A stretch of 64,000 nucleotides of DNA from Halobellus sp. MBLA0158. Its GTDB lineage: Archaea > Halobacteriota > Halobacteria > Halobacteriales > Haloferacaceae. The notes under the pieces were generated by a model. That model did not search any database. It had not been told where the DNA came from and saw nothing but the letters and a program-made list of their open reading frames with translations. The stretch covers positions 1,612,001 to 1,676,000 of the forward strand of contig NZ_JBGNYA010000001.1 in NCBI RefSeq assembly GCF_041477585.1. The letters are read 5' to 3'. Below are positions 45,099-49,128 of this stretch, piece by piece (the stretch's first letter is position 1; every line of letters begins with the position of its first letter). The position numbers and the translations under genes are program-made.

Positions 45099-45920
45099 AT
45101 GCATACTGGAGGCGGTACCGACGGGACTGGGGTCGGTGCCACCGTGGGCGTCGCGACCGCGCTCGACGAGCTGAAATCGCGCGGGAGCGCGCTCTTGGTC
45201 GTCGGGTCGGTCCCCGAAGAGGTCTACGCTCGCGTCTCGGGCTGTATGCTCGGCGATAGTTCGGAGAACCGTCGCCGGGTCGTCGTCGAGGGGGGCGAGA
45301 GCCCCGAGGTTCGGTTCACGGACGTCGACCGGTGGACGCCGGAGTGGACGCGGGTGTTCCGCTGGGACGCCGATCCCCGCCGGTCGGCAGCCGCAGAGAG
45401 CCGCGGAAACGGCTCGGACAGTGGGCGGTCCGTCGGCCCGGACACGGGCCCGAACGGCCCCGGAATCGGGCGGACGAACGATCGGGGGTCCGCTCCCGCC
45501 CCCGGATCCGGCCGGATCGACGGATACGCCGACGCCGCCGTGACGGTCGACGGCCCCGCCGCGAAACTGGGCGTCGAGGTCGGGACGGCGATCAGCGAGC
45601 TCTCCGAGTTCGCCGGCGGCCTCGGTCCCGCGGAACTGCGCGTCGCCTTCGACTGCACGACCTCGTTGCTGTCGGCGTACGACGAACCGACCGCGTTCCG
45701 GTTCCTCCACGTCCTCGCAAACAACATCCGTCGGGTCGACGGGATGGGCCACGTCCGCCTCCCGAAGCCGCTCGACGACGAGACCACCCGTCTCCTCGCC
45801 CCGCTCTTCGACGCCGTCGTGGAACTGCGGCTCGACGGGACCGAACCCCAGCAGCGCTGGCACTTCCGCGACGCCGACGTCACGTCGGAGTGGCTCCCCG
45901 TCGATGAGCCGCCGGCCTGA
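45099..45920 (+). CDS. Degenerate RecA/KaiC-fold protein (DUF7504-like)
   Basis: A 273-residue protein with a RecA-superfamily outline but no working ATP site. ALDELKSRGSALLVVGSVPEEVY occupies the Walker A position, but GxxGxGKT is missing. RVAFDCTTSLLSAYDEPTAFRFLHVLANNIRRVDGMGHVRL matches the Walker B and following helix of KaiC/RadA-like proteins. A proline/glycine-rich spacer covers about 95-150. From memory, haloarchaea have a family called DUF7504 like this, near CHAT-type proteins; the number is unverified. The gene precedes the CHAT protease gene by 64 bases. Confidence 0.7.
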   Translation: MHTGGGTDGTGVGATVGVATALDELKSRGSALLVVGSVPEEVYARVSGCMLGDSSENRRRVVVEGGESPEVRFTDVDRWTPEWTRVFRWDADPRRSAAAESRGNGSDSGRSVGPDTGPNGPGIGRTNDRGSAPAPGSGRIDGYADAAVTVDGPAAKLGVEVGTAISELSEFAGGLGPAELRVAFDCTTSLLSAYDEPTAFRFLHVLANNIRRVDGMGHVRLPKPLDDETTRLLAPLFDAVVELRLDGTEPQQRWHFRDADVTSEWLPVDEPPA

Positions 45921-45954
45921 CGACCGCCGGCGCACGGCCGACGCACCAGTACGC

Positions 45955-45959
45955 TTTTT
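45955..45959 (+). terminator. T-tract between the RecA-fold and CHAT genes
   Basis: TTTTT lies 35 bases after the stop and 26 bases before the CHAT gene ATG. It may terminate transcription or form part of the next promoter. Confidence 0.35.
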
Positions 45960-45984
45960 GCCGCGTGCGTGATGTGTTGGCATA

Positions 45985-48201
45985 ATGGCAGGGTTCGGAC
46001 GCGGCAGACGACCGGCCACGGACGCCGCCGCCGATGACGACGGCTATCTCGGGATCGAGTTCGGCACCCCCACCGACGGGAGCGGGGTCGTCGTCTCGGA
46101 CCCGATCGAGCGGAGCCAGTTCGTGCTCACGACGTCCGAGTCCACCCGCTTGCGCCCGGCGGATCCGGAGGCGTTCCGGTTCCCCGCCGACGCGGCGGTG
46201 CGCGTCCGAACCGACCGGCTCGACCTCGAAACGGTGGTCTCCGTCTGCGTCCGCGACGGCGACGGCGAGATGCTGGCGCAGGCCGAACACTTCGCCGACG
46301 AGTCGTTTCCGGCGGGGACATACAGCGTCGAACTGTTCGCGCCGATCAAGCTCTACCTCCGCGTGGACGCGCCGCTCCGGGTCGTCTCGGACGCCACCCG
46401 GACCCGGATCGAGTTCGACGAGCCGACCGACGTCCTGGTCGGGGCGCGGTCCCACCACAAGCGCCCGGCCGCGACGATCCGGACGACCGACCGACCCCGC
46501 GATATGATGCGCGCGGCCTCGCTGCTCGGCTCGGCCCTGAAGACGACGAGCGTCGAGCGCTCGTACCCGACGCTCCGGGGGCATCCGCCGCTGATCGAGC
46601 GGGGCGCGCGCTTCGAGGCGCCCGACGGGCTCTCGACTCCCGACACGGGCGTCGTCATCGAACTCCCCGAGACCAAGCGGCACGTCTACGCCGCGGCGCC
46701 GCTCGCGTACTACCTCGGGGCGGACGTCGTGCCCGGCGATCGGCCGCGGATCGTGACCGACGCGGGGTTCACCCACGACCTCGACGGCCCCGACGGCTTC
46801 GAGCGGTCGGTCGAGCGGGTGTTGAAACAGACGTTCTTCCTCGATTGTCTCACCCGCACCGAGGGCTACTACGAGGTCGACCTCCACGAACGGGACGCGC
46901 TCGCGGCCGACCTCGACCTGGACTTCGCGGATCTGTACGGGCGGTCGATCGGCGCCCAACTGGACGCGTACCTGGACGTCCCCTACGACGTGCTCGAACC
47001 GCACGTCCCCGAGTGGAAGCTCACCGCACACGTCGCGCCGACCGCCGAGAACGTCGAGTCGCTCCCGTTCGTCGCCAACGACCTCGGGGTGGTGCGGACG
47101 CCCGACACCGAGCCGACCGACGGCTCCGACGCGCAGGCGACTGCGGTCGGGGAGTTCCTCCGCCGGGGCTCGCCGCCGAGACCGACGACGCCCTCGTCGC
47201 CGCCGCCCTCGCCGTCGGCGACGTCGTCGGCGGAGTTCACGCGGAGCGCCGGCAGCGCCACCCGGAGCCAGCGCGTCGAACCCGCCGACCGGCCGACGTA
47301 CGTCCAGCCGCCCGAGGCGGAGTCGCTGGAGCACGCGTGGCTCGGCGAGGGCATCCCCATCGGCGCGAGCAAGGCGTCGCTGCAGGCGTATCGGAACCGC
47401 CTCGATCGGGAGCCGATCGAGGGCGACATCGGCATCACCGTCGTCTGCAACGACCCGCGGATGGCCGAGGAGCGGGAGGCGGTCGAATCGGTCTACGGCT
47501 CCCGCGAGGAACTGCCGTTCGACGTGCGGACCCACTACGAGCTTTCGGTCGAGGAACTCCGGGACGTGCTCGCGACGGACGCGGAGTTCCTCCACTACAT
47601 CGGCCACATCGACGACGACGGCTTCCAGTGTCCCGACGGCGCGCTCGATGTGACCACCGTCGAGTCCATCGGCGTCGACTCGTTCCTCCTCAACGCTTGC
47701 CAGTCCTACGAGCAGGGGATGGAACTGATCGAACGCGGCGCCATCGCGGGCATCGTTACGCTCAACGACGTGATCAACAGCGGCGCGGTCGACATCGGGC
47801 GAAGTCTGGCCCGGCTGTTGAACTACGGCTTCCCGATCCGGGCGTCGTTGGATCTAGCCAAGTACGATAGCGTCATCGGCGAGGACTACATCGTCGTCGG
47901 AGACGGTGGATTCTCCGTCGCCCAAGTACAGGCTGCGTTCCCGAACGTCTGTAAAGTGTATACTGAATCCGACACATATCAACTAGAATATATTACGTAT
48001 CCCGCATCGGAGTTTGGACTGGGGAGTCTCGTCAGCCCGTACTTGCCCAGCGGAGATCGCTATTTCCTCTCATCAGGGACCGCCGACGTATTCGAGGTCT
48101 CTAAGCCGGGGCTGGCCGACTTCCTGTCGATGGAGAATATTCCAGTAATAATCAACGACGAACTCTTCTGGAGTAGCGATATCGACTTGGATTCGCTATG
48201 A
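45985..48201 (+). CDS. CHAT-domain caspase-like protease
   Basis: A 738-residue protein. The N-terminal ~340 residues have a haloarchaeal beta-rich region with no known domain. A Pro/Ser/Thr-rich linker spans about 375-425. The CHAT (clan CD, caspase-fold) domain follows at ~440-640. FLHYIGHIDDDGF carries the catalytic histidine (H541) and FLLNACQSYEQGM the catalytic cysteine (C572), each at a strand end as in CHAT proteases, followed by GIVTLNDVINSGAVDIGRSLARLLNYGFPIRASLDLAK. From about residue 623 the DNA becomes AT-richer and the sequence less conserved in character. It is preceded by the RecA-fold gene and abuts, tail to tail, a 47-codon membrane-peptide gene. Confidence 0.85.
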   Translation: MAGFGRGRRPATDAAADDDGYLGIEFGTPTDGSGVVVSDPIERSQFVLTTSESTRLRPADPEAFRFPADAAVRVRTDRLDLETVVSVCVRDGDGEMLAQAEHFADESFPAGTYSVELFAPIKLYLRVDAPLRVVSDATRTRIEFDEPTDVLVGARSHHKRPAATIRTTDRPRDMMRAASLLGSALKTTSVERSYPTLRGHPPLIERGARFEAPDGLSTPDTGVVIELPETKRHVYAAAPLAYYLGADVVPGDRPRIVTDAGFTHDLDGPDGFERSVERVLKQTFFLDCLTRTEGYYEVDLHERDALAADLDLDFADLYGRSIGAQLDAYLDVPYDVLEPHVPEWKLTAHVAPTAENVESLPFVANDLGVVRTPDTEPTDGSDAQATAVGEFLRRGSPPRPTTPSSPPPSPSATSSAEFTRSAGSATRSQRVEPADRPTYVQPPEAESLEHAWLGEGIPIGASKASLQAYRNRLDREPIEGDIGITVVCNDPRMAEEREAVESVYGSREELPFDVRTHYELSVEELRDVLATDAEFLHYIGHIDDDGFQCPDGALDVTTVESIGVDSFLLNACQSYEQGMELIERGAIAGIVTLNDVINSGAVDIGRSLARLLNYGFPIRASLDLAKYDSVIGEDYIVVGDGGFSVAQVQAAFPNVCKVYTESDTYQLEYITYPASEFGLGSLVSPYLPSGDRYFLSSGTADVFEVSKPGLADFLSMENIPVIINDELFWSSDIDLDSL

Positions 48202-48202
48202 A

Positions 48203-48346
48203 TTAGGGGCCGGAGATACCAACGTGGTTACCGGCGGCGACCGAGCCAGCCTGCGATAGCAGAAGGAGCGCGGTGAACAGGACGCCCATCGCGCGGGGGT
48301 GGTCAGCGAGGTACTGTGCGACAGCGTTGGTGTCATTGTCGGACAT
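48203..48346 (-). CDS. 47-residue single-pass membrane micropeptide (DUF7503-like)
   Basis: Encodes MSDNDTNAVAQYLADHPRAM, then a membrane helix (GVLFTALLLLSQAGSVAAG) and a short tail NHVGISGP. I use the ATG at 48346 because a TATA box sits at the right distance; an in-frame start 45 bases upstream would include the AT-rich promoter. Its stop is one base from the CHAT stop on the other strand. From memory haloarchaea have a small family (DUF7503) with this YLADHPR-TM-SGP layout. It could be a substrate, regulator or antitoxin-like partner of the protease; this is inference. Confidence 0.7.
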   Translation of the reverse strand: MSDNDTNAVAQYLADHPRAMGVLFTALLLLSQAGSVAAGNHVGISGP

Positions 48347-48367
48347 GACGATTGGTACCTCGGCGCG

Positions 48368-48375
48368 TTTTAAAA
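48368..48375 (-). promoter_or_regulatory. TATA box of the micropeptide gene
   Basis: The palindromic TTTTAAAA lies about 22-29 bases before the ATG at 48346, in a pocket where only 8 of 50 bases (48371-48420) are G or C. Suggests a leaderless transcript. Confidence 0.6.
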
Positions 48376-48528
48376 TAAAATTTTCTGACACTTTCTGATA
48401 TAATATAACATTATTTTAGTCGAAAACCGGAGTAGAAAAATCCGCACAGCGCCGAGAGTGGCTCTCGGGAGCTGTCGAAGCGCTACAACAGATACTCGAA
48501 GCGATAGATCAGGTCGCTCGCTCGCCGA

Positions 48529-49128
48529 CTACGCGGAGGTGTCGTCGTCGGGACCGGCGTCGGCGCCGATGTCGCGGTACACCGCAGTGAAATCGTCCTC
48601 GTCGCCGAACTGGGTAAGCGTCTCGTCGAGCTGCGAGCGGAGTTCGGCGACGCGCTCGGAGAGCTCCTGGTATTCCTCGTTGTTCTCCAGGGAGACGGGA
48701 TCCTTCTCGGACTCCAAGAGGGCCTTCTTGGAGGCCAGCGAGAACAGCTCCTGGATGCCCTCGTCGTAGGTGTTCCGGAGGAGGAGGTTCTCGACCGTCT
48801 CCTTGAGGGCCTCCCGCGAGACCGGCTTGACGAGGTAGTCGTCGAAGCCCATCTCCAAGATGTCGAAGTCGGGTTCGACGGCGGTCACCATCGCGACGCG
48901 GCAGTCGACGCCCCGCTCGCGGATGGCTTCGAGGGCCTCGTCGCCCGAGAGGTCGGGCATCCGGCGGTCCAACAGGGCGATGTCGACCTCGTCGTCGAGC
49001 TGTTCGAGTGCCTCGCGGCCCCCGTAGGCGACGCGGACGCGATACTCGTCTCTCAGCCACGTTGCGTACAGATCGGCGAGGTCCGGTTCGTCTTCGACGA
49101 CGAGGACCAGCGGCGAGTCAGCGCTCAT
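48529..49128 (-). CDS. Receiver-HalX response regulator
   Basis: A 199-residue receiver-HalX protein, paralogue of the one at 827-1435. Acidic pocket VEDEPD near 10-15, phosphoacceptor Asp in IALLDRRMPDLSGDEAL near 53, DDYLVKPVSREAL with the conserved Lys, and HalX helices (LLRNTYDEGIQELFSLASKKALLES) at 120-175. The ATG at 49128 gives MSADSPLVLVVEDEPD; a longer frame is not family-like. Tandem 11-bp repeats lie about 100 bases upstream. No kinase gene is adjacent. Confidence 0.9.
   Translation of the reverse strand: MSADSPLVLVVEDEPDLADLYATWLRDEYRVRVAYGGREALEQLDDEVDIALLDRRMPDLSGDEALEAIRERGVDCRVAMVTAVEPDFDILEMGFDDYLVKPVSREALKETVENLLLRNTYDEGIQELFSLASKKALLESEKDPVSLENNEEYQELSERVAELRSQLDETLTQFGDEDDFTAVYRDIGADAGPDDDTSA

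Follow-up and report, generated by a model that had tools for sequence, protein, structure and literature searches.

The window analysed here is a 64,000-nucleotide stretch of DNA from the haloarchaeon Halobellus sp. MBLA0158 (contig NZ_JBGNYA010000001.1, positions 1,612,001 to 1,676,000). We concentrated on a locus at which the gene for a 738-residue protein, modelled with the fold of CHAT-type (clan CD) proteases, converges on a gene for a 47-residue peptide of the Pfam family DUF7503, with one base between the two stop codons. A DUF7504 gene lies upstream of the protease gene. The original prediction, made from the sequence alone, had placed the three open reading frames (ORFs) at these positions with the same spacing, and had named both families; Pfam confirms them. 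We find that the obligate module is composed of two genes, protease and peptide, and propose that the hypervariable tail of the peptide is probably a private ligand of the protease.

Table 1 Features of the protease–peptide locus, in window positions.
Feature	Position	Strand	Basis or remark
CHAT-fold (clan CD) protease, 738 aa	45985..48201	+	AF2 model, gingipain/SAVED-CHAT/separase fold, invariant dyad
N-terminal region, residues 21-374: beta-rich domain 21-170 and alpha/beta part	46045..47106	+	AF2 pLDDT 95
Predicted catalytic His541 codon (HYIGH)	47605..47607	+	
Predicted catalytic Cys572 codon (NACQS)	47698..47700	+	
C-terminal domain, residues 645-738	47917..48198	+	652-654 and 683-693 co-vary with peptide tail
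DUF7503 pre-peptide, 47 aa, convergent to protease	48203..48346	-	Pfam 1.6e-21
Peptide residues 1-38: YLxxHPR juxtamembrane motif, 12-13-residue hydrophobic core, [VA]-x-A38 signal-peptidase-like site	48233..48346	-	
Hypervariable tail GNHVGISGP (residues 39-47)	48206..48232	-	co-varies with protease; tandem in Haloplanus
AT-rich promoter-like element upstream of peptide (about -25 to -45)	48366..48392	-	suits leaderless mRNA
DUF7504 protein (putatively KaiC/RecA-like, P-loop lost), 273 aa	45099..45920	+	frequent non-obligate neighbour; Pfam 4.6e-48
HalX response regulator	48529..49125	-	recurrent neighbour; Pfam HalX 2.7e-25

A protease and its convergent peptide

DUF7503 is present in 250 of the 292 genomes of the class. 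When loci were fetched with only the peptide as query, each of the 30 had a protease tail-to-tail with it, and 20-kb neighbourhoods confirm this order, with stop-to-stop gaps of -17 to +260. Loci fetched independently by the protease carry the peptide in 73 of 80 cases (74 of 81 protease ORFs). Among the seven without a standard peptide, two from Haloplanus and two from Halococcus encode variant peptides; of the other three, one is interrupted by Ns after a tail ending GNAGP, one is truncated, and one has no detectable peptide. Twenty genomes lack a DUF7503 match: ten of these also lack a protease match, two (G048 and G072) have a protease that is broken or has lost its dyad, and most of the others are Haloplanus-type genomes with a repeat peptide. 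An ORF ending in Gly-Pro (GP) converges on 147 of 196 protease stops compared to 1 of 318 stops of other genes at the same loci, and the convergent pairing is thus far above chance. Protease relatives of about 30% identity retain convergent transmembrane (TM) or soluble peptides of 40–90 residues, mostly GP-ending. Relatives from another family of the phylum, f19, align with the earlier part of the profile only, and a peptide of this kind is absent there. The gene order holds across haloarchaea, and the peptide is the dedicated partner of the protease.

At two loci (L062:7852-12730 and L063:7528-12144) a pair of CHAT genes shares one strand, and a single peptide gene lies between them on the opposite strand; for the second CHAT gene no peptide was detected. 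Intact CHAT proteins with no peptide nearby occur at L188 (two in tandem), L189, L192 and L225, two of which adjoin a thioredoxin-like gene; these could be receptors for other peptides.

We built an AlphaFold2 (AF2) model of the protease with 43 homologues (predicted local distance difference test score (pLDDT) 85.7, predicted template modelling score (pTM) 0.86). Residues 343–680, approximately, superimpose on gingipain R with a Z score of 20.8 (2.7 Å, 244 residues; Foldseek, VIA-align), followed by SAVED-CHAT (18.7), separase (18.7), Craspase TPR-CHAT (about 14) and caspases (about 11). H541 and C572, the His/Cys pair named in the original prediction, are invariant in the alignment of the 43 homologues, and each sits after a core β-strand of the model (533–539 and 564–570). 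On this model the protein is assigned to the clan-CD (CHAT/separase/gingipain) protease fold; proteolysis itself is predicted. Pfam, NCBIfam and PADLOC gave no match; the Pfam CHAT profile PF12770 reached 10.7 bits (E 0.32), under its 24-bit cut-off, although this was its sole match in the genome, and Pfam detected no TPR. The genome has one copy of the protease, whose closest named relatives are from Halobellus species (72–74% identity). Across loci the protein has about 680–770 residues, and some genomes have 13–15 protease matches.

The N-terminal region (residues 21–374) gave no confident fold match in PDB structure searches. A YidC/galactosidase-like β-sandwich matched at Z 7–8.7, which may reflect a common arrangement only. 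This part of the protein (window 45985-47106) has strongly conserved motifs, ARSxHxRPA and TLRGHPPLIE, and a high-confidence model.

Co-variation of tail and protease

We computed mean-field couplings for 137 paired protease and peptide sequences (effective number 104). The strongest joins tail position 42 to Tyr686 (z 12.6) and is above any coupling within the protease between columns at least six apart; further couplings are 43 x 652, 42 x 684, 44 x 693, 41 x 683, 45 x 53 and 40 x 654. Pairs above z 3 make up 6.7% of the tail/C-terminal-domain block, compared to about 1% of most other blocks, and couplings of the peptide N-terminus or TM segment with the C-terminal domain are at background level. 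Swapping peptides between near neighbours, as a null, lowered the peak to 6.2–8.9 and the number of couplings above z 4 from 15 to 1–7.

The signal was also predictive. In cross-validation, with training pairs limited to those less than 60% identical, residues 645–696 ranked the true tail at a mean percentile of 0.69 and placed it in the top tenth in 38% of cases, whereas the peptide N-terminus or TM segment, used as controls, gave 0.47–0.51. Other parts of the protease gave 0.54 (697–738), 0.57 (catalytic part) and 0.61 (N-terminal region). Gene linkage is an unlikely cause of the co-variation, since the leader, which is equally linked, does not co-vary, and the signal persists when only distant pairs are used for training. 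The Haloplanus proteases, which were outside the co-variation set, combine Asn654, Trp/His/Phe686 and Tyr/His693 with tails having N40, G/S42 and I/V44, in agreement with the rule predicted from the couplings. This agreement is consistent rather than independent support, because these are close relatives of some training pairs. We take the co-variation to mean that the C-terminal domain recognises the tail directly, assisted by the N-terminal domain. Specific binding of the tail by the protease, chiefly through the C-terminal and partly through the N-terminal domain, in many co-diversified private pairs, is very probable.

Recognition of this kind would also be expected of a substrate, and we considered a model in which the protease docks the tail through an exosite in its C-terminal domain and cuts near the A38/G39 bond, releasing the tail or a membrane-active leader. 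CHAT proteases cleave dedicated neighbours such as Csx30, at non-conserved sites (for example between Ala and Ser) that are set by position (PMC11106740), the peptide is missing beside dead proteases, and the Haloplanus repeats described below would make a multi-site substrate. However, the co-variation is with the C-terminal domain and much less with the catalytic part, a conserved cleavable motif is not present, soluble forms lack the leader, HPR included, and the signal-peptide reading of residues 1–38 places the tail outside the cell and the protease inside. We regard the substrate model as unlikely. Cleavage between HP[R/K] and M (P1-basic, gingipain-like) was rejected as a general mechanism, since the motif is absent in Haloplanus and Halococcus, where the dyad is kept.

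Peptide variants, dyad loss and proposed mode of action

Features were counted in 152 peptides, which follow the consensus M...YLAxHPRMIGVLFTxxLLLSQAGxVAAGxxxxxxGP. R/K18 is found in 151 and G34 in 141, a non-polar run of 12–13 residues in 140, and a (-3,-1) signal-peptidase-like pair at positions 36/38, by a rule-based count, in 150. The tail is 7–10 residues long in 150 and ends in Gly-Pro in 136. Most peptides have 41–48 residues, some up to about 90, and repeat forms up to 188. Purifying selection (ratio of non-synonymous to synonymous polymorphism, pN/pS, about 0.2) indicates that the peptide is translated under constraint. By sequence, residues 1–38 look more like a signal peptide than a stable membrane anchor.

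The variant forms are informative on the leader. In Haloplanus the gene at the peptide position encodes no hydrophobic segment and instead has 2–13 copies of a 13-residue unit, for example YTADGNGGGISGP, which corresponds to the tail GNHVGISGP of the window peptide; it has the upstream element of ordinary peptides and a similar MSExDS start. One locus of the Haloplanus genus group, L033, has retained the ordinary form. Halococcus has a soluble 41-residue peptide ending ACTYSGP, and soluble peptides ending VSTYGGP occur at two loci of a single genus in family f4 (Natrialbaceae-like). Since these forms keep the tail, the leader can be lost or replaced, and the tail is the constant unit.

Repeats of the Haloplanus type, [YFM][TN]ADGN[GS][GS][GA][IV]SGP, were seen at L115:7121-7687, L081, L072 and L236-L241. 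The unit varies between species and is near-uniform inside each, which suggests concerted turnover. Soluble peptides of the form MGVRHNRLWWVV...AKRVSTYGGP lie at L291 (near 4040) and L292 (near 4193), convergent with a divergent CHAT clade (FLNACGS), and a similar one ending ISTYSGP, likewise convergent with this clade, lies at L196 (near 3583; positions are given for the protease strand). Ribosome arrest of the SecM kind by the Gly-Pro end was set aside, as there is no downstream gene in cis and the Haloplanus unit is repeated up to 13 times.

The original prediction had offered the peptide as a possible substrate, cargo or membrane anchor, with the DUF7504 protein as a possible sensor. As an anchor it would be a bitopic helix whose cytosolic part recruits the CHAT protein. 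The hydrophobic segment and the nearly invariant HP[R/K] would suit an anchor. However, soluble tandem repeats replace the helix in Haloplanus and it is absent in Halococcus, the CHAT protein co-varies with the tail only and not with leader or helix, and the presence of DUF7504 is not constant. We consider an anchor to be the least probable of the functions discussed here.

Across the 152 peptides the AT fraction is 0.78–0.87 at -30 to -36 from the ATG; a promoter-like element about 30–36 nt upstream of the ATG fits what leaderless messages of haloarchaea would need. Between about -60 and -72 there is a further AT-rich stretch (window 48366-48420 and the 152 upstream regions), with recurring TATCAGA-type words, which is possibly a shared operator. 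The promoter-like element suits steady leaderless expression, in keeping with a sentinel of export failure: Sec would normally clear the pre-peptide, and on failure the retained tail would bind the CHAT protein and trigger a stress or death response. Presence in most haloarchaea and the combination of signal-peptide features with a cytosolic tail-binding protease fit such a sentinel, but the soluble forms would stay in the cytosol always, and the hypervariable tail and many co-existing pairs would be left without reason. It is therefore highly improbable.

Peptide presence is coupled to an intact catalytic dyad. The peptide lies beside 160 of 182 intact proteases and beside 0–1 of 8 full-length haloarchaeal relatives without the His and Cys (Fisher p 7e-6 to 2e-7), the single candidate being an Arg/Ser-rich, chance-looking ORF. 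These counts were corrected by hand, since automatic dyad scoring was wrong for outgroups and overlooked peptides that are soluble or start with GTG. The eight include orthologues, thus the independent losses are fewer, perhaps five. Dyad-lost relatives without a GP peptide (L199, L215, L230, L088/L233 and L286-L289) are possibly pseudo-proteases retained for another role.

Loss of the peptide beside dead proteases would also be expected of an inhibitor or antitoxin, where the tail holds the protease off and loss of the peptide frees it. Separase, to which the protease fold is akin, is held by securin, and the soluble and tandem forms would act in the cytosol. Against this, the common form of the peptide looks exported, and active-looking proteases without a peptide exist. 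An inhibitor is as doubtful, in our judgement, as a substrate.

Taking together the pairing, the fold, the invariant dyad, the tail/C-terminal-domain co-variation and the absence of the peptide beside dead proteases, all computed here, the best overall explanation is a caspase-fold (CHAT) protease with a private peptide ligand that switches it, and to this explanation as a whole we assign a probability of about 0.45. By analogy with the RRNPP pheromone systems compared below, the tail may control the protease as a secreted autoinducing signal; this form of control takes the largest single share among the readings, and falls short of even odds. The pre-peptide would leave the cell through Sec, signal peptidase would cleave after A38, and the freed 7–10-residue tail would re-enter the cell as the autoinducing signal, bind the cytosolic CHAT protein and switch proteolysis of a target. 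Signal-peptide features, tandem copies, receptor-only loci and up to about 15 copies per genome are pheromone-like traits. More tentatively, a cell may have up to about 15 private channels, in each of which an exported C-terminal peptide is read by its own caspase-fold protease.

Several observations weigh against this proposal. An exported signal is hardest to reconcile with the soluble peptides, since the tail peptides of Haloplanus, Halococcus and the Natrialbaceae-like group have no signal sequence and export is thus not shared by all forms. The n-region lacks a net positive charge (mean -0.4), a Gly-Pro end is missing from some tails, and for about 19 proteases with an intact dyad no peptide was detected. 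The module is linked to neither an import system nor an output gene. The neighbour-swap null keeps couplings of up to z 8.9, and the co-variation thus partly follows descent; nor does co-variation separate a ligand from a substrate or an inhibitor.

Neighbouring genes and known systems

The original prediction joined the DUF7504 gene to the protease and peptide as a trio. Of 41 loci, 19 have DUF7504 directly upstream of the protease and two have it downstream, and only 8 of the best 30 DUF7504 loci are near a protease. It was found in 59 of 59 genomes searched, in up to 15 copies, protease-free genomes included, and the trio as one unit is not supported. The predicted loss of Walker A is supported, with no GK[ST] seen in the N-terminal stretches printed for 21 DUF7504 homologues, whereas the RecA/KaiC fold itself is putative: KaiC was the only recurrent PDB profile match, at a non-significant E of 0.4–1.6. 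In 10 loci the peptide gene adjoins one for a HalX response regulator. On synteny, these neighbours may feed into the module or take its output.

DUF7504 and response-regulator or HalX-like genes also lie beside CHAT genes, in varying order, at L066:10281-11484, L067:8460-9686 and L052:9257-9769. Such sets recur in distant families, and some of the receivers are degenerate. At L185:1520-3886 the CHAT protein is extended at its C-terminus by a stretch similar to the end of HalX, and a DUF7504-like gene is convergent in place of the peptide; a CHAT–HalX fusion has no Pfam support. The glpABC-like and IMPDH conserved neighbours are plain synteny.

A role in abortive immunity, which the original prediction noted for several bacterial CHAT proteases, is not borne out here. 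With a threshold of E 1, none of the three proteins had a match in PADLOC-DB, the module has no viral or phage matches, and the peptide is too widespread in the class to resemble patchy defence genes.

In the open-licence literature searched we found no paper that names DUF7503 or DUF7504, the Pfam families of the peptide and the upstream protein, or that describes their function or pairing, and none on haloarchaeal CHAT proteases or peptide signalling that describes such a pair. The module has the appearance of a protease switch under peptide control that is widespread in salt-loving archaea and undescribed. Haloferax volcanii has strong caspase-like activity, for which the gene was not identified (PMC3615174). 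Haloferax species carry the pair and H. volcanii carries DUF7503, and the Haloferax protease is a candidate for this activity. If the pairing works as we propose, a class-wide regulatory module has been hidden under 'hypothetical protein' annotations. Archaea would then have a caspase-fold protease whose trigger is defined, and peptide communication in which the receptor itself is related to cell-death proteases. The co-variation points to the residues that should be exchanged, so that the model can be put to a direct test in an archaeon amenable to genetics.

Among known systems, the Craspase TPR-CHAT protease (Csx29) shares the fold and likewise has a dedicated neighbour protein, Csx30. Here, however, no gRAMP, CRISPR or TPR was found, gRAMP/Cas7-11 and Csx30 are not among the recurrent neighbours (DUF7504, HalX regulator, housekeeping operons), and the partner is a 40–90-residue peptide with a hypervariable tail. 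Separase and securin are similar in being a clan-CD protease with its own protein partner, but there is no sequence match, the partners are unrelated and the cohesin role is eukaryotic. SAVED-CHAT of type III CRISPR is alike in the fold of its catalytic domain (18% identity), whereas searches with the N-terminal region gave no SAVED match and no CRISPR genes were among the neighbours examined. Gingipains R and K are the best structural matches (239–260 residues, Z about 20), but are secreted bacterial proteases with no peptide partner.

The RRNPP(A) systems (Rap-Phr, PlcR-PapR, NprR-NprX and AimR-AimP) are recognised by a small propeptide, Sec export, a 250–500-residue TPR receptor and adjacency of the genes (PMC10075063), and some of them have the pheromone in tandem copies or include receptor-only loci (PMC11343458, PMC9765709). 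We find adjacent genes and a propeptide of 10–100 residues here, but neither a receptor of 250–500 residues nor TPR repeats, and the picture for Sec export is mixed, with signal-peptide features in 150 of 152 peptides beside the soluble forms; the haloarchaeal pair is therefore not a member of RRNPP. It also differs in being archaeal, in its 700-residue CHAT protease, convergent gene order and Gly-Pro ending, and in that some pre-peptides have no signal sequence. The two kinds of system are alike in having a pre-peptide gene beside the receptor gene, a signal-like leader, a mature part that is C-terminal and variable, numerous paralogous pairs within a genome, some tandem copies and receptor-only loci.

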